Source: a virus. From it: a stretch of DNA of 31,146 nucleotides. The stretch is from IMG/VR virus record IMGVR_UViG_3300009408_000227, positions 1-31,146 of that record, one strand, 5' to 3'. Below the pieces are notes generated by a model. The model had not been told where the DNA came from. It did not search any database and worked only from the letters and a program-made list of their open reading frames with translations. The translations under genes and the position numbers were made by a program. Below are positions 2,576-20,844 of this stretch, piece by piece; the stretch's first letter is position 1; every line of letters starts with the position of its first letter.

Positions 2576-2969
2576 AACAGCTAACGACTTGGCAGACCTA
2601 AACAATGTCATTATAGGTTTAGATATTACTAAACCTCAGTTAGTGGTTATTGGTGAGGCTAAGAACGTCAGAAGTCTAGCCCAGAACTCACTTTTATGGA
2701 AATGGTACACAGAAATGGCAAACCACATATTTTATCAGACGGGCAGACGTTACAACACAAAGGCCATTCATATCGAAATGAAAGGAAGCTTCCTTAAACC
2801 TAAAGTCTATGAACTTAAAAATAAAACAGTCCAGGAATACAGTACGAAAAATCTAAACACTAAAGAATTCACAGTATATTTAGAAAAATTAGATTTTTAT
2901 TGTACCGATAGTTTAAATTTGCAATTAACGCATCCAATATCTGAATATGATCTTGCTATGGGTAGATAA
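2553..2969 (+). CDS. ninB: NinB-like recombination protein
   Basis: A 138-residue protein fitting the NinB/Orf family of phage recombination mediators, which load strand-annealing or exchange proteins onto single-stranded DNA coated by SSB. Family-like features are RSLAQNSLLWKWYTEMA in the middle and a helical region before a C-terminal ISEYDLAMGR tail. Length matches the family (about 140 residues). Position also fits, since ninG follows directly as in the lambda nin region. The ATG at 2553 overlaps a possible microprotein. Confidence 0.65.
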   Translation: MKQSYLIKTANDLADLNNVIIGLDITKPQLVVIGEAKNVRSLAQNSLLWKWYTEMANHIFYQTGRRYNTKAIHIEMKGSFLKPKVYELKNKTVQEYSTKNLNTKEFTVYLEKLDFYCTDSLNLQLTHPISEYDLAMGR

Positions 2970-2970
2970 G

Positions 2971-3528
2971 ATGGCTAAATGTAAAATATGCAAACGTGAA
3001 TACCAAAAATTTTCATCAATGCAAAAAGTGTGCGGTGTAACATGTTCAATAAAATTAGTTAAACAAGAGAAAGAAAAAAAATTTAAACAGAAAACAAACG
3101 AATTAAGGGTTAAAGCAAAAACTAAGTCTCAATGGCTAAAGGAAGCTGAAAGAGAATTTAATCGATACATTAGGGCTAGAGATTTTTATGATCCTTGTAT
3201 AAGTTGTAGGACTATTAAATACGTACAGTATGCAGCAGGACATTACTTCACTAAAGGCGGGCACTCTGAATTGAGATTTAACGAGGACAACGTACATAAA
3301 CAGTGCAACAAACATTGTAACATGATGTTATCAGGAAATATCGCAGCTTATCGAGTAGAGCTTGAGAAAAAGATAGGTGCAGAAAGATTAAGGATTTTGG
3401 AAGGTAAGCACGAACCAAAAAATTATACGATTGACGACATTAAAAAAATTAAAGAGAAGTACAAGAAATTAGCGAAAGAATTAGAAGACCAGATAGTAAA
3501 CAATTTTACAATTAAGGCGGATAAATGA
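2971..3528 (+). CDS. ninG: NinG (Rap) recombination nuclease
   Basis: A 185-residue NinG family protein, a structure-specific endonuclease related to endonuclease VII that acts on recombination intermediates. An N-terminal zinc site uses C4, C7, C21 and C25. Further motifs are the EFNRYIRARD helix, the second CxxC in PCISCR, then AAGHYFTKGG and RFNEDNVHKQC, all typical of NinG. I chose ATG 2971 over the in-frame ATG at 2947, because the family begins MAKCKxC and 2947 lies inside ninB. The gene marks the end of the recognisable nin region. The sugar cassette starts in its last four bases. Confidence 0.9.
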   Translation: MAKCKICKREYQKFSSMQKVCGVTCSIKLVKQEKEKKFKQKTNELRVKAKTKSQWLKEAEREFNRYIRARDFYDPCISCRTIKYVQYAAGHYFTKGGHSELRFNEDNVHKQCNKHCNMMLSGNIAAYRVELEKKIGAERLRILEGKHEPKNYTIDDIKKIKEKYKKLAKELEDQIVNNFTIKADK

Positions 3529-4664
3529 ATATTTTAACCTTAGGAGCAAGCGGATACTTAGGATGGGTCAATCTCTTACATTTCACCAAACAAGGACATA
3601 ATGTAATTGGGGTAGACTCAAGATTAAAACAAATAATGTTGGCTAAAGGAAATTTAACTGCATTGGAAGTTGAACCAGATACAAACAGTCGCGTTGAAAC
3701 TGCAAAACGATTATTTAAAAATGAAAACGTTATATTTCTTGAGAATGATATTTGTGATAATGGCGTATTAACCCAGATAATTGAAAAACACACCCCTGAT
3801 GTGATTTTACATTTTGCCGAACAACCTAGCGCGCCCTTTTCAATGTTAAATGAATTTAATGCTTGTGGCACACTTCACAACAATATCATCGGCACTCAAA
3901 AATTAATTTGGGCGGTTAAGGAGATCAATCCAGAGATACATATCATTAAATTGGGTACGATGGGGGAATATGGAACACCAAACATTGATATAGAAGAAGG
4001 CTGGCTTGATGTTAATCACAACGGACGAACTGACAAAATGTTATTCCCTAAATCACCTCATTCGATCTACCACTTATCAAAAGTAAATGATTCTGACGCT
4101 CTAGCTTTTGCGTGTAGAGTATGGGGGTTAAAGGTTACTGATCTTAACCAAGGTTTTGTGTATGGAATGCATACACCTGAAACAGATGAAACAGGTCTAT
4201 ACCCTAGATTTTGTTATGACTCAGTATTCGGAACAGTGCTAAATCGATTTATTGTTCAGTCAGTAGTTGGGCACCCTTTAACTATTTACGGTACTGGCGG
4301 TCAAACAAGACCCATGATAAATATAAACGATACGATTAAATGTATTCAATTGGCTATCGACAACCCTGCCGACCAGGGCGAATTTAGAGTATTTAATCAA
4401 TACACTGAAACAATGAGTATTAACAAAATAGCCGATATGGTATCTCAAGTTACAAACTGCCCGATTGAAAATATTACAAACCCAAGAACAGAAAAGGAAG
4501 ATCATTATTATAACCCAAAAAATTCAGCTCTTAGTCAATTAGGGCTAGAGCCTGATTTATTAACATCAGAATTAATCTGTAAAATGGTTAATTGGGTTGA
4601 GGCTAGAAAGCAATATATTAACGAAGATCAAATATTACCTACTATTGCATGGAGCGGAAAATGA
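3525..4664 (+). CDS. sqdB: UDP-sulfoquinovose synthase (SQD1/SqdB family)
   Basis: A 379-residue extended SDR. SqdB makes UDP-sulfoquinovose from UDP-glucose and sulfite with bound NAD. The NAD-binding turn is GASGYLGW (7-14). Family-specific blocks are FAEQPSAPFSM (97-107), LGTMGEYGTPNIDIEEG (143-159), HNGRTD (165-170), YHLSKVNDS (182-190), TDLNQGFVYG (205-214) and FGTVLNRF (235-242). Candidate catalytic residues T145, Y182, H183 and K186 are all present. Length matches the bacterial enzyme. The family is known from photosynthetic bacteria, plastids, rhizobia and some archaea, so a phage copy between ninG and the late regulator is unexpected. Start ATGA overlaps the ninG stop. Product identity as a sulfonated sugar is inferred from family. 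Confidence 0.88.
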   Translation: MNILTLGASGYLGWVNLLHFTKQGHNVIGVDSRLKQIMLAKGNLTALEVEPDTNSRVETAKRLFKNENVIFLENDICDNGVLTQIIEKHTPDVILHFAEQPSAPFSMLNEFNACGTLHNNIIGTQKLIWAVKEINPEIHIIKLGTMGEYGTPNIDIEEGWLDVNHNGRTDKMLFPKSPHSIYHLSKVNDSDALAFACRVWGLKVTDLNQGFVYGMHTPETDETGLYPRFCYDSVFGTVLNRFIVQSVVGHPLTIYGTGGQTRPMININDTIKCIQLAIDNPADQGEFRVFNQYTETMSINKIADMVSQVTNCPIENITNPRTEKEDHYYNPKNSALSQLGLEPDLLTSELICKMVNWVEARKQYINEDQILPTIAWSGK

Positions 4665-5491
4665 AATATTTAATAACAGGTTCTAATGGTTTTATTGGTA
4701 GTGCGTTATCTAAACATACCACCGACAATGTCGGTTTTGATATAAAGCAAGACTCAAGCAAATCAGTAGCTAATTATTACGCGTTTGAGAATTATATAAA
4801 ATCAGTAGCACCAGACGTTATTGTTCATCTTGCGGCAATTTCAGGGATAAAAGATTGTATTGATGACCCAGAAGGGGCTTTTCAAACAAACGTTAAAGGG
4901 GCAACAAATGTGTTAGACTTGGCTAAAAAATACAAAATAAAAAGAGTTATCATGGCATCAAGCGCAGGGGTGATAGCTTGTCCTAGCCCATACCATGCAC
5001 ATAAAAGATATTTAGAGGATATATCATCAGCCTATCATATAACTCATGGTGTCAGCGTTTGTTGCTTACGGTTTTCAAATGTCTATGGTATAGGTTCAAT
5101 CGATAAAAGCTCTGTTATTGCCAACATGTTTAAAGAAGCAATCACAAGCGGAATTATCACAGTAGAGGGCGGCAAACAATCAAGAGATTTTGTATGCATA
5201 GATGACGTTGTTAGAGGAATAATAATAGCATCTGAATCTAATTATTCCGGCACACTGAATATTGGTGGAGGGAATCAGTTCTCAATTAATGAGATCGCAA
5301 CTAAAATAAGTAACTTAACGAAAGCTAAAATAGTATGTAAAAATCCAAGGCCAAATGATGTTAAAGACAACTATGTTGATATTGGGTTTTCTGAGGACAT
5401 TTTAGACTGGCATCCTTACGCCGGGATAAATAACGAATTAAATAAAACATATAATTATTTCAAAGAGTCTATCTTAAGTGAGGCAGTATGA
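4661..5491 (+). CDS. NAD-dependent sugar-nucleotide epimerase/dehydratase (SDR)
   Basis: A 276-residue extended SDR of the GalE/RmlB superfamily. GSNGFIG (7-13) binds NAD. The catalytic pair is Y111 and K115 (YHAHK), after the usual serine region ASSAG (99-103). RFSNVYG (142 onward) and RDFVCIDDVV (about 184-193) are typical of UDP- or dTDP-sugar epimerases and dehydratases. It is shorter than GalE (about 340), so the C-terminal substrate domain is compact. I start at ATG 4661, not the in-frame ATG at 4649, because 4661 gives a four-base overlap with sqdB and has GGAGCGG upstream. The substrate cannot be read from sequence; it could modify the SqdB product or make an independent sugar. Confidence 0.8.
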   Translation: MKYLITGSNGFIGSALSKHTTDNVGFDIKQDSSKSVANYYAFENYIKSVAPDVIVHLAAISGIKDCIDDPEGAFQTNVKGATNVLDLAKKYKIKRVIMASSAGVIACPSPYHAHKRYLEDISSAYHITHGVSVCCLRFSNVYGIGSIDKSSVIANMFKEAITSGIITVEGGKQSRDFVCIDDVVRGIIIASESNYSGTLNIGGGNQFSINEIATKISNLTKAKIVCKNPRPNDVKDNYVDIGFSEDILDWHPYAGINNELNKTYNYFKESILSEAV

Positions 5492-5661
5492 CTTTTAATA
5501 TAGAAGCGGCGCAAAAGGATTATGATTTTACCAAAGGCGCAATAAGAGATTTCAAGGTATGGTTATTAAGCCTTGAGAGAGAGATAGCTCATGGAATTAA
5601 TGACTTTAACGATCTAAGAAATATATTTTATGTACATTTTGGTAGGGGGGCGAGAAAGTGA
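5488..5661 (+). CDS. 57-residue orphan inside the sugar cassette
   Basis: Opened by an ATGA overlap with the preceding SDR and closed by a GTGA overlap with the radical SAM gene, so it is held in frame on both sides. The protein (MTFNIEAAQKDYDFTKGA at its start) looks helical with aromatic and charged residues and ends basic. It has no signal or membrane segment and no recognised family. Small size and context suggest a partner or acyl-carrier-like accessory, but the usual carrier DSL serine motif is absent. Confidence 0.55.
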   Translation: MTFNIEAAQKDYDFTKGAIRDFKVWLLSLEREIAHGINDFNDLRNIFYVHFGRGARK

Positions 5662-6536
5662 AACTACTACACTATCACTGGTATCGTTTTAAATGGTTCT
5701 TAACAGAACATACAAACTATACCCCTAAAGTCCCATTGCATTTAGATTTAGAATTAACTAATCAATGTAATCTAAAATGTACCATGTGTCGGCATGGAAT
5801 AGACCCTGAACCAAATCAAGGTCAAATGAGTACAGAAAACGCCTATAAGATAATTGAACAAGCTGGCGATTTAGGTATCCCGTCAATGAAATTTCAATTT
5901 CGCGGTGAATCAGCATTACATAAAGATTTAGAAGAATTAATTTATTTCGCCAAACATTGTAGAATTTTAGAAACGCAATTGAATACAAATTTAGTTGCCT
6001 TTAATAAACACCGCATTAAAAAATTATGCGATTCAGGACTGGATAGAATTATCGTATCAATTGACGGAGCGAATAAGAAAACCTATGAGAAAATACGAGT
6101 AGGCGCAAAGTGGACTAAGTTACTTAAAAATCTTGAATACCTAAACTCACATAAAAAACGCCCTAAAATTCGTATACAAATAACCTATCAGGATCAAAAC
6201 AGGCAAGAAATAGAAGAATTTAAAACTAAATTCAAACCATTATGCGATGAATTAAATATAAAACCTGTTCGATCTGATAACTCTGGTGGTGAGCGTAAAT
6301 CTTGCCCACAACCTAGACAACGAATAGTAGTGGGGTGGGATGGTAAAATGTATGGGTGCTGTAATGCTTGGAATGGAGAATCAATATTATGTTGCGCTCC
6401 ATTCCCAAAACTAAAAACTATATTCGAACCAGAATATCTACTTAACGATGAGCTGAAAAACTTAAGGTGTAAAGCAAAAAATCCTAGCGAATTTGAACCT
6501 TGTAAATCTTGTTTAATAAGGAGTAGTTACAAATGA
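5658..6536 (+). CDS. Radical SAM protein with SPASM-like C-terminus
   Basis: A 292-residue protein. C37, C41 and C44 form the CxxxCxxC site for the 4Fe-4S cluster that cleaves S-adenosylmethionine. QFRGESALH (about 90-98) is a GGEP-like element. The last 80 residues hold cysteines at 216, 234, 235, 245, 246, 271, 282 and 285, as in SPASM/twitch auxiliary-cluster domains. A GTG start at 5658 overlaps the previous stop by four bases and is preceded by a run of six G. Relatives occur in surface-polysaccharide and nonulosonate loci, where the chemistry is often undefined (epimerisation, dehydration or carbon-skeleton changes). Its direct coupling to the NeuB-like gene suggests it acts on the same sugar or its precursor. 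Confidence 0.85.
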   Translation: MKLLHYHWYRFKWFLTEHTNYTPKVPLHLDLELTNQCNLKCTMCRHGIDPEPNQGQMSTENAYKIIEQAGDLGIPSMKFQFRGESALHKDLEELIYFAKHCRILETQLNTNLVAFNKHRIKKLCDSGLDRIIVSIDGANKKTYEKIRVGAKWTKLLKNLEYLNSHKKRPKIRIQITYQDQNRQEIEEFKTKFKPLCDELNIKPVRSDNSGGERKSCPQPRQRIVVGWDGKMYGCCNAWNGESILCCAPFPKLKTIFEPEYLLNDELKNLRCKAKNPSEFEPCKSCLIRSSYK

Positions 6537-7288
6537 CACCTTATATTTTAGCGGAAATAGCAAGCGGTCATTATGGCAGTTATAAAACATTAATCGATCT
6601 AATCTACGCATCAAAAGAATCTGGTGCTAATGGCGTAAAATTACAGATGTGGCGAGATTCTGAGATAAAATCACATAAATATTACCACAATTTAAAGAAA
6701 TTTGAGTTCAAAGATAGCCAATGGCAAAAAGCCGCTAAATTAGTTAAAGAATTACAATTCGATCTCTGGGTTGAAGTTTATGGGGTACAGTCTATAAAGT
6801 TAGCCGATCAATTTAAATATGACTATCTAAAAGCAAATCGAAAACATGCAGATAACCCAGACTATATGGCCTTAATTAGATCAGGAGAATTAACCCGAAA
6901 TTATATGTCTACTTGGTGGCGTTTTGATCCAGATTCAGGACGAATACAAAAAAATATAGCGGTAGGGGAACAAAGTTACCCAACAACGCCGGCACAAGGT
7001 TGGTACGAGGCTGATATCTGTAACCAACTAGCCGAACAAGATACTAATGTAATGTATTCCTGCCACCAAAACCCATTAGGGAATAGTGCGTATACGATAC
7101 CGTTAGCAGCTTATCAAGCCGGTGCAGATATTATAGAAAAACATATCTGTATAAGCAGAAAAGAATTAAGGGAATATTCAAGGGATTATGTCAGCTCTTT
7201 TGAACCTAAAGAATTTAAGGATTTCGTTAATTTTATGAAAACTAAAAAAGTGACCGCATTATGCGGTCATTGCGGGTTGAAGATGTGA
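6533..7288 (+). CDS. Short NeuB-like aldolase barrel without SAF domain
   Basis: A 251-residue protein related to the catalytic TIM barrel of NeuB, which condenses phosphoenolpyruvate with a hexose to give a nonulosonic acid. AEIASGHYGS (7-16) and ANGVKLQMW (32-40) match the first strands. SCHQNPLG and GADIIEKH supply the two histidines expected to hold the metal. The C-terminal antifreeze-like SAF domain of ordinary NeuB (about 340 residues) is missing, and the middle is divergent (SGELTRNYMSTWWRFDPDSG). So it may use another substrate, or borrow a SAF domain from the second NeuB at 11024. An opposite-strand terminator-like hairpin lies in its last codons. Start ATGA overlaps the radical SAM stop. 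Confidence 0.75.
   Translation: MTPYILAEIASGHYGSYKTLIDLIYASKESGANGVKLQMWRDSEIKSHKYYHNLKKFEFKDSQWQKAAKLVKELQFDLWVEVYGVQSIKLADQFKYDYLKANRKHADNPDYMALIRSGELTRNYMSTWWRFDPDSGRIQKNIAVGEQSYPTTPAQGWYEADICNQLAEQDTNVMYSCHQNPLGNSAYTIPLAAYQAGADIIEKHICISRKELREYSRDYVSSFEPKEFKDFVNFMKTKKVTALCGHCGLKM
7242..7269 (-). terminator. Leftward terminator inside the neuB-like 3' end
   Basis: Read on the minus strand, TGACCGC (7269-7263) and GCGGTCA (7257-7251) form a seven-base stem with a five-base loop, extendable to nine bases, followed by C and six T (7249-7244). The plus strand lacks a T-run. It would stop leftward transcripts entering the cassette. Confidence 0.5.
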
Positions 7289-7935
7289 ACACTATAATTT
7301 GCATAGCCTGTAGACTAAAATCCAAACGCCTACCAAAAAAAGCGATTAAACCGCTACACGGAAAACCTTTAATTGTTAGATTAATCGAAAGATTGAAAAA
7401 AACAGTTGTGCCAAGCCAGATAGTATTATGCACTTCTCACAATAAGGATGATGATGAATTAATAGATTTTGTGGCCGATACTAGAGTGATGGCTTACAGA
7501 GGATCGGAATTGGACGTAATGTCCAGATTTATCGAGGTAGCCGATGCATGCGAGGCCGATACAATCGTTAGGGTTACAGGTGACAATCCTTTAACTGACC
7601 CTGAGTTAATTGATAATATGGTACGAAAACACCATGAAACAAAATCAAGTTACACTTTTGTTAAGGATGCGCCTAAAGGTGTAAAGCCTGAAATTATCGA
7701 TGTTGATAAATTGAAATGGCTGCATAAGCGAGTTGATGGTGATAAATCCGAATATATGACTTACCAACTTGAAAAACTATACGCTAAGACCGAATATGAG
7801 AGCGGCTTAGGCTATAGAGACTTAAGGTTAACCGTTGACACCCAAGAAGATTACGAGCTTGTTAGTGCGATATATGACCACTTTACCGGAGAACCTCCAT
7901 TAACTGGGAAAATATTAGAGTATTTGAATCAATGA
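7285..7935 (+). CDS. Acylneuraminate (CMP-sugar) cytidylyltransferase, SpsF type
   Basis: A 216-residue nucleotidyltransferase. IACRLKSKRLPKKAIKPLHG (7-26) is the family's nucleotide-binding loop, RVTGDNPLTDPELID supplies the acidic metal-binding region, and LRLTVDTQEDYELV is the conserved C-terminal block of NeuA/KdsB/SpsF enzymes. It should activate an acidic sugar with CTP to a CMP-sugar, the step after a NeuB-type synthase. I prefer GTG 7285 to the in-frame ATG at 7261. It gives the cassette's usual GTGA overlap and places the nucleotide loop near the N-terminus, as in the family; 7261 lies inside the hairpin. Confidence 0.82.
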   Translation: MNTIICIACRLKSKRLPKKAIKPLHGKPLIVRLIERLKKTVVPSQIVLCTSHNKDDDELIDFVADTRVMAYRGSELDVMSRFIEVADACEADTIVRVTGDNPLTDPELIDNMVRKHHETKSSYTFVKDAPKGVKPEIIDVDKLKWLHKRVDGDKSEYMTYQLEKLYAKTEYESGLGYRDLRLTVDTQEDYELVSAIYDHFTGEPPLTGKILEYLNQ

Positions 7936-8303
7936 ATCAAAAAGACCTTGATGCTCTACTCTATGATTGGGTTAGTGAAATGTTAACTGAAACGAGCGGC
8001 TACCCTTCTGAAACTCAAGAATTCAAGATAATGAAAAACGGTATACGGGTTCAAGGTGGAATTACCTACGCCCCTATATTCAAATCGAAACCAATAATAA
8101 AGGCTATTGACAATTACATTAGAGGTTTATCATTAAGGCGTAAAAATTGTTTAGTAGGTAAGTATTTGGAATCTATGACAATTAGAGAAATAGCAACTTA
8201 TAACGAGTGTTCATTCTCCAGTGTGCATAGAGATATACGAGCAGCAAGAAAGGAATTACTTGAAAAATTGACACTTTTCAACCATAATAACTCTAAGATT
8301 TAA
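7932..8303 (+). CDS. Sigma-region-4-like late regulator (Q-position)
   Basis: A 123-residue protein. Residues about 68-112 (LSLRRKNCLVGKYLESMTIR, then EIATYNECSFSSVHRDIRAA) form a helix-turn-helix like sigma-70 region 4 and phage late activators or antiterminators of the Q/ArpU kinds. The N-terminal half is not recognisable. It sits at the end of the nin-like region and upstream of a terminator and terS, the place of lambda Q. It is coupled to the cytidylyltransferase by an ATGA overlap. Probable role: switch on late transcription. Activation versus antitermination cannot be decided from sequence. Confidence 0.65.
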   Translation: MNQKDLDALLYDWVSEMLTETSGYPSETQEFKIMKNGIRVQGGITYAPIFKSKPIIKAIDNYIRGLSLRRKNCLVGKYLESMTIREIATYNECSFSSVHRDIRAARKELLEKLTLFNHNNSKI

Positions 8304-10279: not shown

Positions 10280-10525
10280 ATGAGTATGAAATTACACATG
10301 CAAGTCAAGGTAATCTTGAAAAGGCTAGATGATATAGAGGGTCAAATAGACCGACTACATCAACTATCATCAGTTTATCAAGAGGCCGCAAATGAAATCA
10401 AAAAACAAGTACAAAGTTTCAGTAATAATAGTGTGTCATCCAAAGTACCAGGAACATCTAAGAAACGCACTGCAAAGTCTAAACCATCAAACAATAAAAA
10501 ACTTCGAGATAATTCTAGTTCTTAA
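10280..10525 (+). CDS. Coiled-coil protein with tail overprinted on the GT2 gene
   Basis: An 81-residue protein preceded by GGAGG (10270-10274 region). Residues 1-40 form a heptad-like helix (ILKRLDDIEGQIDRLHQLSS). From about residue 38 the frame overlaps the first 134 bases of the glycosyltransferase gene, and its composition changes to low-complexity S, N and K (TSKKRTAKSKPSNNKK). Probably an originally shorter late gene whose C-terminus now reads through the inserted glycosyltransferase start. Function unknown. Confidence 0.6.
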   Translation: MSMKLHMQVKVILKRLDDIEGQIDRLHQLSSVYQEAANEIKKQVQSFSNNSVSSKVPGTSKKRTAKSKPSNNKKLRDNSSS

Positions 10526-11027
10526 CGGGTATAAGGAATTAAAAAGAATTAGAGCCGATCACGATTTAACAATAATCAGGACAGACGATACAAACTTGGC
10601 TACAGCGTGTAACGCTGGGATAAATAAAAGCACAGGAGAATATATAATAAGGCTAGATGCCGATGATAAGTTTCACCCAGACATCTTAAAGCTAGAGTTA
10701 GATCTTATTAATAACTATGACGCTATTTATTGTGACTTTTACCGGACTGAGGATGGTGAAATAACAGAAATAATGGAACACCATACATTGGAACATGCTT
10801 GCGGCGTACTCTATAAACGTGAGGTATTTGACAAACTTAAAGGATATGACGAAAGCCTTGAATATCAAGAATCGTTTGATTTTTGGCTACGGTTTTTCAA
10901 AGCCGGTTATAAAGCTACAAGAATAAAACATCCATTATATTTTTATCGAAAGCATCAAGGGTCAATGAGTACCAATACTGAACAGAGAGATAAGGCAAGA
11001 TTAGATATACTGGATAAACATAAATGA
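10392..11027 (+). CDS. GT2-family glycosyltransferase
   Basis: A 211-residue GT-A fold enzyme. VSVIIVCH (9-16) opens the nucleotide-binding fold, QSLNHQTIKNFEIILVLNG follows, and RLDADDKF holds the DxD metal motif at D89/D91. CGVLYKREVFDKLKGYDESL and ESFDFWLRFFKAGYK match the acceptor side of GT2. It lacks membrane segments, so it is cytoplasmic. AAGAGG seven bases before the ATG supports the start, although the first 134 bases overlap the coiled-coil gene. It ends in an ATGA overlap with neuB. The donor could be the CMP- or UDP-sugar of the cassette, but GT2 enzymes vary and CMP-sialic donors usually use other folds. Confidence 0.85.
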   Translation: MKSKNKYKVSVIIVCHPKYQEHLRNALQSLNHQTIKNFEIILVLNGYKELKRIRADHDLTIIRTDDTNLATACNAGINKSTGEYIIRLDADDKFHPDILKLELDLINNYDAIYCDFYRTEDGEITEIMEHHTLEHACGVLYKREVFDKLKGYDESLEYQESFDFWLRFFKAGYKATRIKHPLYFYRKHQGSMSTNTEQRDKARLDILDKHK

Positions 11028-11974
11028 CTTATATCATAGCGGAAGTAGGCGGGAATCATGACGGAGAACTTAATCAAGCTTTAATATTAATCTATGAGGC
11101 TAAGAAGGCCGGAGCTAACGCGATTAAGTTCCAGATATATAATGCTGATAAACTGGTACATCCAAATGAACCAGCCTTAAAACAAGCTAAGGGCTACACA
11201 AAGCAGATAGATAGATTTAAAGACCTGCAATTTTCACATAATGAATGGATGGAAATCATTCAGGTATGCAATGATGAAGGTATAGACTTTATGGCTACGT
11301 GTTTTGATATTGAAACACTTGAGAAATATGAGCCATATATGTCAATGATTAAAATATCATCAGGTGATTTAACTTATAAGCGATTGATTAAGAAGGCATC
11401 AAGCTATAAGAAGCCTGTCATATTAAGTACAGGAATGAGCGACTTAAACGAGATAAATAGAGCGAGTAATTGGGCTGATCCTGATCAGACCGTTATGCAC
11501 TGTGTTAGCTCTTATCCTTGCAAAGATAAAGATGCGAATATTGAAGCTATAGAAAATCTTAAAAGAACCTATAGAAATGTAGGATACTCAGATCACACTA
11601 TAGGAATAACAGCCTGTTTAATGGCTGTCTCTTTAGGTGCGACAGTAATAGAAAAACATTTTACACTTGATAAGACGCGAGATTATGGTGATCATCCGCT
11701 ATCTTCTGACAGTTCAGAATTAGCGGAATTGGTGCAGCACGTTCAACGAATAGACAATATGCGGGGCAAACAAAAGCCTAGCGATTGCGAGAAGTTGACA
11801 GCACCTCATTTTCGCCGGGGAGCATATTCCGCTACTGATATTAAGAAAGGTGATTTTCTCACTTATGATAATATCAGCGTGCTTCGTCCGGCGACCCAAT
11901 TACTACCACATGAATATGTGGGGCAGATTGCAAAGCAAGATTTTAAAAAAGGTGATTCCCTAGATGGAACATAA
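11024..11974 (+). CDS. neuB: Full-length NeuB/SpsE-type nonulosonate synthase
   Basis: A 316-residue protein with the two NeuB domains. The TIM barrel (1-250) shows AEVGGNHDG (6-14), ANAIKFQIY (31-39), MIKISSGDLT, CVSSYPC, SDHTIG and ATVIEKHFT, with the metal histidines. The SAF (antifreeze-like) domain starts near 255 (RRGAYSATDIKKGDF) and ends with the usual ISVLRP and IAKQDFKKGD blocks. It condenses phosphoenolpyruvate with an N-acyl hexosamine-type sugar to a nine-carbon acid. Substrate subtype (sialic, legionaminic, pseudaminic or other) cannot be told. Lies between terL and portal in the late operon, away from the cytidylyltransferase at 7285, and overlaps the portal by 11 bases. Confidence 0.88.
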   Translation: MTYIIAEVGGNHDGELNQALILIYEAKKAGANAIKFQIYNADKLVHPNEPALKQAKGYTKQIDRFKDLQFSHNEWMEIIQVCNDEGIDFMATCFDIETLEKYEPYMSMIKISSGDLTYKRLIKKASSYKKPVILSTGMSDLNEINRASNWADPDQTVMHCVSSYPCKDKDANIEAIENLKRTYRNVGYSDHTIGITACLMAVSLGATVIEKHFTLDKTRDYGDHPLSSDSSELAELVQHVQRIDNMRGKQKPSDCEKLTAPHFRRGAYSATDIKKGDFLTYDNISVLRPATQLLPHEYVGQIAKQDFKKGDSLDGT

Positions 11975-15551: not shown

Positions 15552-16429
15552 GAGATATAACGTTAGGTGATACGATTTATATCAGGTTTACTACTAGGGC
15601 CTTTGCTACTGGAGTTCCTACCACTTTAGCGGGTACTCCTGTTTTATCGATTTATGAAGAAAATAATTTAGTACAAATTACTGCCGGTGTTAGTGTGACA
15701 GCAGATTATGATTCAGTTACAGGGCTTAACCAAGCAACCATCGTAGCAACTTCTGGAAATGGATATGAGTCAGGAAAATCTTATGATTTAGTCATAACCA
15801 CTGGTACTGTAAGCAGTGTATCGGTAGTTGGCGAAGTTGTAGGTTCGTTTACCGTGGAATCTAGTTCCGCATTTATTAGATTAGGTTCACCGGCCAGTGC
15901 CAGCATTGCAGCCGATCTGGTTGCTATTGATAACTTCGTTGATGGTATTGAAACAGCAGTGATTACCAATGCTGCTGGTGTAGATATATCGGCTGATATT
16001 GCCGCAGCCAAAGTTGATACAGCCGCTATTTTGGTTGACACTGGAACAACTATCCCCGGAACAATAATAACTCTACAAAGTGATACTGATAATATTCAAA
16101 CCAGAATACCGGCGGCTTTAGTTGGTGGGGTGATGGATTCAAATGTAAGTGCTATTTCATCGGATACAACAGCAGCAACAAATTTGAGTAAATCAGCCCT
16201 TGGAATTAGCTCTGGATTATGTTCTGGAACGCCAACAACTACGACTATTGCTACAGATTTAACAGATACAACTAATGAAACTTATACAGGTAGGGTCATC
16301 ATTATGACTTCGGGTAATGCTAAAAATGAGGCAACAGATATCACAGCTTATGACGGAACGACAAAGACATTAACCGTCACAGCTTTAGCGACTGCACCAG
16401 CAGCAAATGATACCTTTGTTATTGTATGA
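15548..16429 (+). CDS. Ig-like/repeat virion protein, decoration or fibre type
   Basis: A 293-residue protein. The first 105 residues look like an Ig-like beta sandwich (GDTIYIRFTTRAFATGVPTT). The middle has short helical repeats of the kind IAADLVAIDNFVDGIE and ADIAAAKVDTAAILVDTG, found in phage baseplate/decoration proteins. A last beta-rich domain of about 60 residues ends TAPAANDTFVIV. It probably sits on the outside of the head or at the head-tail join. Coupled to its neighbours by four-base overlaps. Confidence 0.6.
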   Translation: MRDITLGDTIYIRFTTRAFATGVPTTLAGTPVLSIYEENNLVQITAGVSVTADYDSVTGLNQATIVATSGNGYESGKSYDLVITTGTVSSVSVVGEVVGSFTVESSSAFIRLGSPASASIAADLVAIDNFVDGIETAVITNAAGVDISADIAAAKVDTAAILVDTGTTIPGTIITLQSDTDNIQTRIPAALVGGVMDSNVSAISSDTTAATNLSKSALGISSGLCSGTPTTTTIATDLTDTTNETYTGRVIIMTSGNAKNEATDITAYDGTTKTLTVTALATAPAANDTFVIV

Positions 16430-16815
16430 TAACTAGATTAGGCTTATATGCAGGAGCTAGGTCTGCTTATAGTACATTCTCAGCTAAAACAGAGACAATA
16501 ATAGAAAGCATTATTTCGTCAGGTGTGCCTAGCAAACCTCAGAAACTACGGAGAATAATGATAGGTAGCGAACTATTCGTTATTAAAAGTCCAGAGCATG
16601 AACAATATTTATTAAATAGATTTTTAGATAAGCAACAAAAAGAGTTTGACCGCTTAATTATGGCAAAGAAAATGCCTTCAATTAAGAAAAAAATTAAACT
16701 TACATCCAATCAAATTACCAGAACAAAAACCAGACTTAAGAAAGCGGAGAATAAAGTATGGCAGCAAAAGATAAGAAACGAGGACGAGGAAATCCTATTG
16801 TTACTAGCACTGTAA
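16426..16815 (+). CDS. Hypothetical basic protein, 129 residues
   Basis: Starts by an ATGA overlap. The N-terminal part (LYAGARSAYSTFSAKT) is polar, the C-terminal half is a highly basic helix (KKIKLTSNQITRTKTRLKK). The 3' 58 bases overlap the next gene in another frame. Compatible with a small head-associated or DNA-contacting protein. No family recognised. Confidence 0.5.
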   Translation: MITRLGLYAGARSAYSTFSAKTETIIESIISSGVPSKPQKLRRIMIGSELFVIKSPEHEQYLLNRFLDKQQKEFDRLIMAKKMPSIKKKIKLTSNQITRTKTRLKKAENKVWQQKIRNEDEEILLLLAL

Positions 16816-18160: not shown

Positions 18161-19120
18161 ATGGCATTGCCATCAAATACATTTACACAATATGATTCAA
18201 TCGGTAATCGTGAGGACTTATCAGACGTTATTTATGACGTTAGTCCGACCGAAACGCCTTTTGCGTCAGGTATTAAACGAGTATCAGCTACAGCCGTTCT
18301 ACATGAATGGCAAACTGATTCATTGGACGCAGCAACAGCAAACAACGCCGCTTTAGAAGGCGATGACGCTACAGGCACAGCAGTAACACCAACAGTACGA
18401 GTCACTAACCGCTGTCAAATCATGGATAAAGTGATTGTCGTTTCTGCTACTCAACGTGCTATTGTTACAGCAGGTCGAGCAGATGAGCTGGATTTTCAAA
18501 CGGTTCGTAAAGGTCGAGAGCTAAAACGTGATGTTGAGGCCGCTATTACTGGTAGTAATGCAGCAACAGCAGGGTCAACAGCTACAGCACGTTTGCTAGG
18601 CGGTGTTGAGACTTATTTAGCGACTAACATTAATCGTACAACCACAACCCATACGACGCCGGGTGCAGGTGCGGCGATTACTGACGGTACTGGATTAACC
18701 TTAACAGGTGCAACAATGAAAACAGCGTTAGATGACGTTATATCATTGGCTTGGACAGAGGGCGGCGATCCTTCTACTATTATGTTAGGTGCAAGTAACA
18801 AACAGGTTGCGTCAGGCATGACAGGGATTGCAACGCTTTATCGTGATAACCCAGCCGGTATGCAAGGTCAATTAATCGGTGGCGCAGATAGCTATGTTTC
18901 TGATTTCGGGAATCATACTATTGTACCTAACCGATTTATGAGAACTCGCACCGTATTAGTTTTAGACATGGAATTCTTTGCAATCGCAGAGCTTCGCGGT
19001 ATGCAAACGACTGAACTAGCTAAAACTGGTGATAATGACAAAGTGCAGTTAATTACTGAATTGACTCTCGAAGCACGTAACGAGAAATCAAGCGGTAAAA
19101 TTGCAGACGCTTTACCATAA
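18161..19120 (+). CDS. Major capsid protein, SU10-like (DUF5309)
   Basis: A 319-residue protein matching the SU10/DUF5309 major capsid group. The start ALPSNTFTQYDSIGNREDLS with IYDVSPTETPFASGI, the LHEWQTDSLDAAT segment and the C-terminal MEFFAIAELRGMQTTELAKT are characteristic, and the fold is HK97-like. Residues about 130-182 include a threonine-rich insertion (NRTTTTHTT, 158-166), likely surface-exposed. AGAGG precedes the ATG. A strong terminator follows the gene. The next but one gene is a TPR-glycosyltransferase. Confidence 0.88.
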   Translation: MALPSNTFTQYDSIGNREDLSDVIYDVSPTETPFASGIKRVSATAVLHEWQTDSLDAATANNAALEGDDATGTAVTPTVRVTNRCQIMDKVIVVSATQRAIVTAGRADELDFQTVRKGRELKRDVEAAITGSNAATAGSTATARLLGGVETYLATNINRTTTTHTTPGAGAAITDGTGLTLTGATMKTALDDVISLAWTEGGDPSTIMLGASNKQVASGMTGIATLYRDNPAGMQGQLIGGADSYVSDFGNHTIVPNRFMRTRTVLVLDMEFFAIAELRGMQTTELAKTGDNDKVQLITELTLEARNEKSSGKIADALP

Positions 19121-19174: not shown

Positions 19175-19489
19175 ATGAAAAGGCTATTAGATCACGATGA
19201 ACTAACCGGCATATCGACTTATCATGAGTACGATCATGCCAACAAAAAAACAATCATTGAATCAATACAGGATATCGATCCTATATTAGCATTAAACAAA
19301 ATGCGTTCAGGTGATTTAAAGAAAAAAGAAAACTGGTGGTATATTGGGACAATCCCCGATACTACTATCCTTCAATGGGCTAAAGAATGTGGTCATAATC
19401 CTTACACTAAAGAATGGAACGAATATTCTAAAAAACAACTACAAAAAGCAGAATTTCGTAAATTAAACATGAATGGTATTAAGTTTTGA
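19175..19489 (+). CDS. Conserved post-capsid phage protein
   Basis: A 104-residue protein. MKRLLDHDELTGISTYHEYD, then IIESIQDIDPILALNKMR, and WWYIGTIPDTTILQWAKE match a small protein often encoded just after the capsid gene in podovirus-like phages. Its molecular role is not known to me. AGGTGGG before the ATG is a strong ribosome binding site. It overlaps the TPR-glycosyltransferase by a TTGA start/stop. Confidence 0.75.
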   Translation: MKRLLDHDELTGISTYHEYDHANKKTIIESIQDIDPILALNKMRSGDLKKKENWWYIGTIPDTTILQWAKECGHNPYTKEWNEYSKKQLQKAEFRKLNMNGIKF

Positions 19490-20844
19490 TTATCGAAGTT
19501 AAGAGATTGATAGACTCGGAAAACTATCAACAAGCCACTGGGATTATTTTAGACCTGTTAGATCAAAATCCCAATGATGCTATGGCTCTATTTTTATTCG
19601 GGGCCATGTTAATAAAGCAAGATAAATTAGGGCTTGCTTATAATATTTGTGCGAGAGCTGCAAAGTTAGAGCCTGAAAAATCCGCAATATGGGCTAATTA
19701 CGGGGTATGCCAACCTGACAACCCCGATGGATGGGAGGCGGCAAAGTGGTGTCTTAACAAATCCTTAGAATTAGAACCCGATAACAGTCAAGCAATGGCT
19801 CAGATGGCTAGCTTAATGATAAATACCTGTGAGCCTAAAGAAGCGCGTATATGGGCTAATAAAGCCTTAAAGATAAACCTTAATAGTAAAGTAGCGTTAG
19901 GATCTAAGGCGTTCGCTTATTTGATGGAAAGTAACTGGAAAAAAGGCTTTGAGTATTATAAATGCATGTTGCAGACCCAATATAGAAACGATGTGCAATA
20001 CGGCAACTTGCCGATGTGGGAAGGTAAAAAAGGCGAGACAGTCATAGTTTATGGCGAACAGGGGATAGGGGAAGAAATAACCTTTACTCAGGTTTTAAAC
20101 GATTTGTCCAAAGATTGTACTGTTATTTATGATGGTATGCCGAGGGTTAAGAATTTGTTACAACGCAGTTTCCCAAATGTTCATGTTTGCGGGGATAGGT
20201 GGTCAAATCAATTAAGTTACCCGGAAGGCTTAACACCTACTGCAAGAATACCTTTGCTTGGATTACCCGCGTTCTACAGAACTAAAAACGCTGATTTCGA
20301 TGGTAAACCTTATTTAAAAGCTGATTCGAGTATGCGAGACAGTATTAAGGGGCTGCTTAGTTCATTAGGAGATAACCCTAAAATCGGTATAGCATGGACA
20401 GGAGGTACTACTAATTCAAGAGGTCACTTAAGAACACAAAGCCTTGATAGTCTTACTCAAGTGTTAAGAACTCCTGATGTTGATTTCATATCATTGCAAT
20501 ACCTTGATCCAAAAGAAGAAATAGAACAATACCAAAAAGAAAGGGATATTAAAATACATCATTTCCCGTGGATTACCGAAGTTAAGGACTACGACTTAAC
20601 AGCAGCTTTAGTGAGTGAATTGGATCTCATTATTTCAGTCCCTACCTCAGTCACTCAATTAGGTGGTGCTTTAGGCGTTGAAACGTGGGTCTTGGTTCCA
20701 GAAATTCGAGGCTGGTTATTTTACGGAGACTATTATGTATGGGCTAATAGCGTAGAACCTATACATAATTGGAATATAAAGGATATTTCGGCTAAACTAC
20801 AAGCATGGTTAAGCGGAGATCATGCAAAGCAAATAGAAGGCTAA
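19486..20844 (+). CDS. TPR-domain glycosyltransferase (GT9/GT41-like)
   Basis: A 452-residue protein. Residues 1-165 are tetratricopeptide repeats (AIWANYGVC, AKWCLNKSLELEPDNSQAMA, WANKALKINLNSKVALGSKA). Residues about 185-452 are a glycosyltransferase of the TPR-linked GT9/GT41-like type: VIVYGEQGIGEEITFTQVL, KIGIAWTGG, and SELDLIISVPTSVTQLGGAL then VETWVLVP. TPR plus such a domain usually modifies proteins. The TTG start overlaps the previous stop by four bases, so expression is coupled and probably modest. Two genes after the major capsid, its likely target is a virion protein. The sugar donor may come from the phage cassette or the host. Confidence 0.85.
   Translation: MIIEVKRLIDSENYQQATGIILDLLDQNPNDAMALFLFGAMLIKQDKLGLAYNICARAAKLEPEKSAIWANYGVCQPDNPDGWEAAKWCLNKSLELEPDNSQAMAQMASLMINTCEPKEARIWANKALKINLNSKVALGSKAFAYLMESNWKKGFEYYKCMLQTQYRNDVQYGNLPMWEGKKGETVIVYGEQGIGEEITFTQVLNDLSKDCTVIYDGMPRVKNLLQRSFPNVHVCGDRWSNQLSYPEGLTPTARIPLLGLPAFYRTKNADFDGKPYLKADSSMRDSIKGLLSSLGDNPKIGIAWTGGTTNSRGHLRTQSLDSLTQVLRTPDVDFISLQYLDPKEEIEQYQKERDIKIHHFPWITEVKDYDLTAALVSELDLIISVPTSVTQLGGALGVETWVLVPEIRGWLFYGDYYVWANSVEPIHNWNIKDISAKLQAWLSGDHAKQIEG

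Follow-up and report, generated by a model that had tools for sequence, protein, structure and literature searches.

Gene content and layout of the locus

The window analyzed here is the complete 31,146-base virus record IMGVR_UViG_3300009408_000227, which may itself be a fragment; its terminase most resembles the enzymes of APSE, Hafnia, and Vibrio phages, and its portal and capsid genes are of the SU10 type. At positions 5658-7935 lie three adjacent genes, joined by four-base overlaps as an earlier note on this DNA had described, that encode a radical S-adenosylmethionine (SAM) enzyme (hereafter rSAM), a short NeuB-like barrel, and an SpsF-type cytidylyltransferase. The rSAM/barrel junction is an ATGA overlap, and the barrel/cytidylyltransferase junction is GTGA if the latter gene starts at GTG 7285, as the homologue in the related viral contig L002 suggests; the alternative start, ATG 7261, gives a 28-nucleotide overlap with the short NeuB. 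We propose, with a probability of roughly 0.6, that this trio belongs to a pathway, encoded by the phage, for the synthesis and transfer of an acidic sugar of the nonulosonate type activated with cytidine monophosphate (CMP), and that the product probably decorates the virus or the infected cell. The genes considered are as follows.

2947..3528, + strand: NinG (Pfam NinG, 174 bits), a phage gene coupled to the module at its 5' side
3525..4664, + strand: SQD1-type short-chain dehydrogenase/reductase (SDR), uridine diphosphate (UDP)-sulfoquinovose synthase-like; first module gene, with an ATGA overlap with NinG
4661..5491, + strand: second nucleotide-sugar SDR, LegB/GalE/RmlB-like (Pfam Epimerase, 124 bits), with ATGA overlaps on both sides
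5488..5661, + strand: 57-residue open reading frame (ORF) between SDR and rSAM in the overlap chain, with 4-nucleotide overlaps on both sides
5658..6536, + strand: rSAM, twitch-type and BtrN-like, GTG start, 292 residues (Pfam Radical_SAM, 68 bits)
6533..7288, + strand: short NeuB-like barrel (NeuB#1) with no SAF domain, 251 residues (Pfam NeuB, 47 bits; cutoff 22.1)
7285..7935, + strand: SpsF/KdsB-type cytidylyltransferase, likely GTG start at 7285 (Pfam CTP_transf_3, 96 bits; cutoff 22.6)
7932..8303, + strand: Q-like/sigma-70 region 4 regulator (Pfam Sigma70_r4_2, 28 bits; weak PHROG Q-like match), coupled at the module's 3' side
10392..11027, + strand: GT2 glycosyltransferase (Pfam Glycos_transf_2, 71 bits), ATGA-coupled to the complete NeuB
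11024..11974, + strand: complete NeuB with SAF domain (NeuB#2; Pfam NeuB, 232 bits; SAF, 22.6 bits; TIGR03569, 277 bits)
18161-19120: major capsid gene
19486..20844, + strand: tetratricopeptide repeat (TPR) and glycosyltransferase-like protein, candidate transferase, two genes past the major capsid gene

A single chain of seven consecutive 4-nucleotide stop/start overlaps runs from NinG through the SQD1-like SDR, the second SDR, the 57-residue ORF, the rSAM, the short NeuB, and the cytidylyltransferase to the Q-like gene. From this layout, the module appears to be built into the phage lytic block and not to be independent cargo under a promoter of its own. Some 2.5 kb past the trio, between the terminase and portal genes, lie the GT2 and complete NeuB genes. 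These two, together with SQD1, the second SDR, and the TPR-glycosyltransferase, belong with the trio and extend the gene set beyond that of the earlier note.

Recurrence of the trio in phages and bacteria

The closest counterpart is L002 (IMGVR_UViG_3300017963_001551), in which the order runs SQD1, SDR, rSAM, short NeuB, cytidylyltransferase, Q-like gene, small and large terminase, GT2, full NeuB, and portal, with the same TPR gene further on past the capsid gene. Its trio stands in the same adjacent order at 38-45% protein identity to that of the window (45% for the cytidylyltransferase), and an order shared at this divergence points to more than chance. Three further viral contigs, which like other phage contigs may be incomplete, carry variants of the set: L057 encodes an rSAM, a GT2-NeuA fusion, a NeuB without SAF, SQD1, and SDR; L134 encodes SQD1, SDR, GT2, rSAM, cytidylyltransferase, Q-like protein, terminase, and later a full NeuB, with no short barrel; and L067 encodes SQD1, a short barrel of the window type, and a cytidylyltransferase, with no rSAM. 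The core of the rSAM-type phages is thus SQD1, SDR, GT2, rSAM, CMP-transferase, and NeuB, and the short barrel is an addition found in some of them. Single-protein scans returned no viral relatives of the short NeuB or of the rSAM, L002 having been found via SQD1 only, and a tblastn search of 50,697 phage records yielded no short NeuB, only distant rSAMs, and no SQD1 at E 1e-30.

The same three kinds of gene occur together in four bacterial loci (L042, L248, L258, L259). The rSAM, NeuB, and SpsF-type transferase genes are contiguous in L258, share one cluster with a TPR-glycosyltransferase in L259, and form part of a polysaccharide cluster in L042. In genome G721 (L248/L254), a squalene-synthase-like gene and other non-phage genes surround a cluster of two TPR-glycosyltransferases, a GT2-NeuA fusion, an rSAM, a NeuB with a SAF-like tail, a cytidylyltransferase of the window type, NeuA, a second NeuB, an SDR, and SQD1; its NeuB with the SAF-like tail is the best non-phage match to the window short barrel (27%, E 1.7e-21). 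Among 398 Pseudomonadota genomes, each of the three top-scoring rSAM matches lies close to a NeuB and a cytidylyltransferase; G721 is itself a row of the rSAM profile, which inflates its score, and the other two matches are independent. About two dozen weaker rSAM loci include only two with NeuB, and a contig scan with a two-row rSAM alignment found remote rSAMs only, without the trio. The bacterial genomes are a sample, covered by about 1,840 genome searches in which many genomes were searched repeatedly. The earlier note had proposed surveying neighborhoods for the trio, whose absence elsewhere would have told against its reading; the trio recurs both in other viral contigs and in bacteria.

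Several neighboring features were seen along the way. A GT2 domain is fused to a NeuA-type cytidylyltransferase in virus L057 (3406-4845) and in bacterium L248 (92-1483), and tandem short ORFs of ALxPAL-type repeats surround the short NeuB and CMP-transferase genes of L067 (2925-6149). Viral contig L027 (3670-11332) carries WbpG-, HisF-, PseB-, SpsF-, and DegT-like genes, a NeuB without SAF, an acetyltransferase, and a radical SAM gene, which form another acidic-sugar cluster.

The SQD1-type SDR and its linkage to NeuB

The SQD1-like SDR finds its best PDB match in plant SQD1 (1qrr, E 1e-114) and scores 416.8 bits against the NCBIfam model NF041015 for UDP-sulfoquinovose synthase, below the equivalog cutoff of 575. 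It keeps Thr145, Met, Tyr182, and Lys186, of which Thr145, Tyr182, and Lys186 are named as active-site residues of SQD1 (PMC4388408). In catalytic residues and length the window protein thus resembles SQD1 and Agl3, the latter making UDP-sulfoquinovose for incorporation into glycoconjugates (PMC4388408); it differs from them in falling under the equivalog cutoff and in being linked to NeuB instead of to sulfolipid synthesis. Sulfolipid synthesis is accordingly not favored for this gene, the more so as a sulfolipid synthase gene did not come to notice. An earlier report of a viral UDP-sulfoquinovose synthase concerns a Mu-like virus, and a term search of that account met no mention of sialic acid genes (PMC7785012).

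The second SDR scores 70 bits against NCBIfam LegB, below the cutoff of 475, and is conserved in L002, L057, and L134. Pfam and NCBIfam scans of the genes around the module, in a record that may be a fragment, found none of the LegB-C-H-G, PseB-C-H-G, or NeuC sets. The earlier note had held that the usual NeuC/PseB/PseC/LegB-like steps are absent, which stands for NeuC but not for nucleotide-sugar SDRs, two of which directly precede the trio in the chain of overlaps.

Linkage of SQD1 to NeuB extends well beyond the window. NeuB lies nearby in 13 of 80 viral SQD1 loci, and in a tree of 63 SQD1s the NeuB label requires four changes, compared with a mean of 11.1 in shuffles (0/500 as low); 11 of the 12 NeuB-labeled rows group together in a single clade of 21 (SH-aLRT 99). 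In several NeuB-linked SQD1 phages, NeuC and a 2-hydroxyacid dehydrogenase are present as well. In the sampled Pseudomonadota, the SQD1s nearest the viral ones (L224, L225, L226, L244, L249, L250) are accompanied by NeuB, NeuC, and NeuA, and most by the dehydrogenase. As separate observations, a group of phage contigs (L003/L056, L004, L005/L006, L009/L069, L010, L055, L058, L060) combines SQD1 with a NeuB that lacks SAF and is otherwise intact, several with ribonucleotide reductase-like genes and, where the contig is long enough, often with NeuA, NeuC, and the 2-hydroxyacid dehydrogenase; and the bacterial SQD1-NeuB-NeuC-NeuA cluster of L224 adjoins flgL, which suggests flagellin glycosylation.

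These data bear on the strongest competing explanation, in which SQD1 and the NeuB/CMP-transferase pair form two independent routes into one glycan, one supplying UDP-sulfoquinovose and the other an ordinary CMP-nonulosonate, with the rSAM acting in only one of them. The intact SQD1 active-site residues would lead one to expect plain UDP-sulfoquinovose, the product that Agl3 provides for glycoconjugates (PMC4388408), and in 67 of the 80 viral SQD1 loci the examined flank contains no NeuB. Set against this, SQD1 often directly borders NeuB, or the NeuB-NeuC pair (L060, L224, L226), in both phages and bacteria, an adjacency that suggests one route. We regard two routes as a real contender that falls somewhat short of an even chance.

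The candidate TPR-glycosyltransferase and its possible target

The window TPR protein shares 52% identity with that of L002, 30% with that of phage ctDrO704, and 28% with a G721 TPR-glycosyltransferase (E 2.5e-31). Its N-terminus contains TPRs, its C-terminus resembles the TPR proteins of bacterial NeuB clusters and an annotated phage glycosyltransferase, and it has no Pfam glycosyltransferase match. The gene lies near the capsid gene in the window, in L002, and in ctDrO704 (L222), and further family members are located next to or within two bacterial NeuB/rSAM clusters. Also in L002, the gene after the portal (15858-16541, continued in L050) looks by eye like a motility-associated glycosyltransferase of the Maf/DUF115 type; no such gene was noticed at the corresponding position of the window.

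A useful comparison is the flm system of Caulobacter crescentus. FlmG, a TPR plus GT-B enzyme, binds flagellin via its TPR part and has been shown to transfer pseudaminic acid to it, and NeuB, FlmC, and FlmG together supply a NeuB synthase, a CMP-transferase, and a target-binding transferase (PMC7591256). As described there, flm is a chromosomal pseudaminic acid pathway acting on flagellin, whereas the window set is borne by a phage and its TPR gene is likened to FlmG by description; moreover, the passages of that account considered here name no SQD1 or radical SAM enzyme. By this analogy, a TPR-glycosyltransferase encoded beside the capsid gene recalls FlmG, and its position and coupling would be consistent with a modified virion.

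As a target, the host envelope competes seriously with the virion. The module would then remodel surface sugars of the host (O-antigen, capsule, or flagellin sugars) against superinfection or adsorption and leave the virion unglycosylated. Phage-borne glycan genes often act in just this way, and the related bacterial clusters are of envelope or flagellum type, with Wzm/Wzt-like transporter genes in L258 and flgL beside L224 (gene names assigned by eye). Yet neither a flippase nor a polymerase gene came to light near the module, its genes are tied by overlaps to the phage lytic block rather than forming a separate moron, and the TPR-glycosyltransferase gene keeps its place by the capsid gene in the window, L002, and ctDrO704. 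On balance we consider a purely host-directed role rather unlikely. Modification of DNA was set aside as a function: the module showed no gene of a modification type, and CMP-sugars are not known to serve as donors for DNA modification.

A complete NeuB and a NeuB-like barrel with different active sites

The complete NeuB carries the NmNeuB signature save for Asn184->Ser, a serine also present in many relatives, and its VLRP motif supplies the (L/K)RP arginine. Its TIGR03569 score of 277 bits lies below the cutoff of 399.65; by its sequence it is likely an enzyme that condenses phosphoenolpyruvate (PEP).

The short barrel departs from this pattern. As the earlier note had stated, it is a NeuB-type barrel that lacks the SAF domain and keeps the metal histidines: H178 and H204 align with NmNeuB His215 and His236. 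Its AlphaFold2 model contains eight strands (predicted local distance difference test [pLDDT] 84, predicted template modeling score [pTM] 0.85), and the best PDB matches of the model are the sialic and pseudaminic acid synthases NeuB, SpsE, and PseI (6ncs/1xuu). Mapped on NmNeuB, it retains Glu25, Gln55, Lys129, Tyr186, Ser213, His215, Glu234, His236, and Asp247, and it is changed at Thr110->Glu, Ser132->Arg, Ser154->Arg, Asn184->Gln, and Asp214->Cys. Ser132 and Ser154 line or flank the NmNeuB active site. The SAF/AFP-like domain with Arg314 is lacking, the protein ending after the barrel with no Pfam SAF match. The NmNeuB active site is lined by Thr110, Lys129, Asn184, Ser213, and His215, together with Arg314 from the SAF domain (PMC6795526). 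Modeling of the barrel, which the earlier note had suggested, thus upholds the fold, and the metal histidines and Lys129 are kept, but the Thr110, Ser132, Ser154, and Asn184 positions differ and SAF is lost. Given these changed positions and the missing domain, the short barrel need not be a PEP-condensing enzyme. We place it, from its sequence, in a NeuB-like subfamily rather than in NeuB proper.

Gln at position 184 is shared by all four of the window short barrel, L002, L067, and the rSAM-linked G721 NeuB, and Glu at position 110 by three of the four. In the NeuB tree the short barrels sit on very long branches, so that the subfamily rests mainly on these signature residues and on gene context. 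The L002 copy lacks much of strands 4-5; when all three frames of its gene were read, the other two were full of stops, which rules out a frameshift and leaves a deletion or a genuinely shorter barrel.

A competing explanation is loss of function, the short barrel being a functionless, decaying copy of the NeuB that the same phage encodes in complete form. The missing strands of the L002 copy and the Cys in place of Asp214 in the window would agree with decay. The gene nonetheless retains its overlaps with both neighbors and an AAGGAG ribosome-binding site, the predicted structure keeps a confident barrel fold and metal site, and the L067 relative and the rSAM-linked G721 NeuB have the same special signature. 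Decay therefore appears improbable to us.

The radical SAM enzyme and the cytidylyltransferase

The rSAM contains the motif C37-x3-C41-x2-C44 and the auxiliary cysteines C216, C234, C282, and C285, all conserved in an alignment of all five homologues. The earlier note had called it a SPASM-type radical SAM enzyme; the radical SAM assignment holds (68 bits), but a full SPASM domain does not (Pfam SPASM 18.2 bits, below the cutoff of 21.5), the C-terminus being a four-cysteine region of the twitch type. In a profile comparison with the PDB, it matches BtrN best (E 7.6e-15), with an alignment that covers both the core and auxiliary domains; its structure model is weak (pLDDT 60) and too poor for a fold search. 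BtrN, the 2-deoxy-scyllo-inosamine dehydrogenase of butirosin biosynthesis, is a twitch enzyme that oxidizes an aminocyclitol alcohol (PMC9012708). The two proteins share the twitch-type architecture and the four auxiliary cysteines and differ in setting, the window rSAM lying in a nonulosonate-type operon and not in an antibiotic cluster. This kinship favors a radical sugar dehydrogenase: the rSAM is most likely a radical alcohol dehydrogenase acting on a sugar, and its step may fall on the sugar precursor or on the product.

A viperin-like antiviral role for the rSAM, or its presence there by chance as an unrelated maturase, is highly implausible: PADLOC pVip models match it at about 42 bits and the NCBIfam viperin model at 37.9 bits, the latter far under its cutoff of 180, which led us to reject a prokaryotic viperin identity, while its C-terminal four-Cys domain aligns to BtrN and the gene is kept near NeuB and a CMP-transferase in phages and bacteria.

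The cytidylyltransferase is of the SpsF type that the earlier note had assigned (96 bits to CTP_transf_3). One model, TIGR04321 (spiro-SPASM), matches both this protein and the rSAM, which supports the idea that the two work together. In spiro-SPASM proteins the two parts form a single chain, in the window they are separate proteins, and no NeuB part is matched by the model.

Discussion

NeuB and CMP-transferase catalyze consecutive steps of nonulosonate synthesis, as established for the Neu, Leg, and Pse pathways. The earlier note had read the trio in this light, and its interpretation as an acidic-sugar pathway is partly supported: the acidic-sugar direction is borne out, and the short barrel is not a plain NeuB, the orthodox one lying at 11024-11974. 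Like bacterial Neu/Leg/Pse clusters, the window set comprises NeuB, a CMP-transferase, and NAD-dependent SDRs; it differs from them in that no NeuC/PseG/LegG-type hydrolase, aminotransferase, or acetyltransferase was found around the module and in the addition of a radical SAM enzyme and SQD1.

In the pathway that we propose, the SQD1-type and second SDRs would remodel a UDP-hexose, probably by introducing a sulfonate at C6, and the BtrN-like twitch rSAM would oxidize or otherwise alter a hydroxyl on the pathway sugar. The complete NeuB would condense the six-carbon sugar with PEP. The short barrel may work beside the rSAM, either on its product or in a changed metal chemistry that is perhaps not PEP-dependent. 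The SpsF-type enzyme would then activate the acid with cytidine triphosphate, and the GT2 and the FlmG-like TPR-glycosyltransferase would transfer the sugar to its acceptor, most likely a protein of the virion, for example the capsid protein.

What the data show directly are the genes present, their order and coupling, their recurrence, the folds, and the residues of the active sites; all of the reactions, the sulfonate, the product, and the target are what we infer. Several points weigh against this proposal. NeuC is missing in rSAM-type phages, which leaves the source of the free hexose unexplained, and the phage record may be incomplete. The GT2 and TPR-glycosyltransferases could use other donors. 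The active site of the short barrel is altered and its L002 copy has lost part of the barrel, and L134 has an rSAM and a CMP-transferase without the short barrel, so that this protein is not always needed. Furthermore, the two-route and host-surface explanations can each hold in part alongside the proposed pathway, and our estimates for them are not exclusive.

A more specific scheme is speculative, and we think it improbable as a whole: the phage would place a sulfonated, radical-oxidized, nine-carbon nonulosonic acid on its own capsid by way of a NeuB-like barrel of changed chemistry, and the bacterial SQD1-NeuB-NeuC-NeuA clusters would be the cellular version of the same sugar class.

As a kind, the nonulosonate glycosylation cluster is known; the combination described here and its location in a phage look new. 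In an open library of 5.39 million papers, with most subscription papers outside the scope of the search, we found no paper naming radical SAM, NeuB, and nonulosonic together, and no SQD1-NeuB link among the titles and abstracts listed. If the linkage reflects one pathway, it would define a class of acidic sugar without a match in the papers found, one that joins sulfoquinovose, radical SAM, and nonulosonate chemistry and is shared by phages and bacteria. The locus yields a small gene set, an rSAM whose substrate is likely a sugar, and a NeuB-like subfamily whose active site is distinct, and it suggests that phages supply for themselves both the sugar pathway and the transferase that modify the virion.

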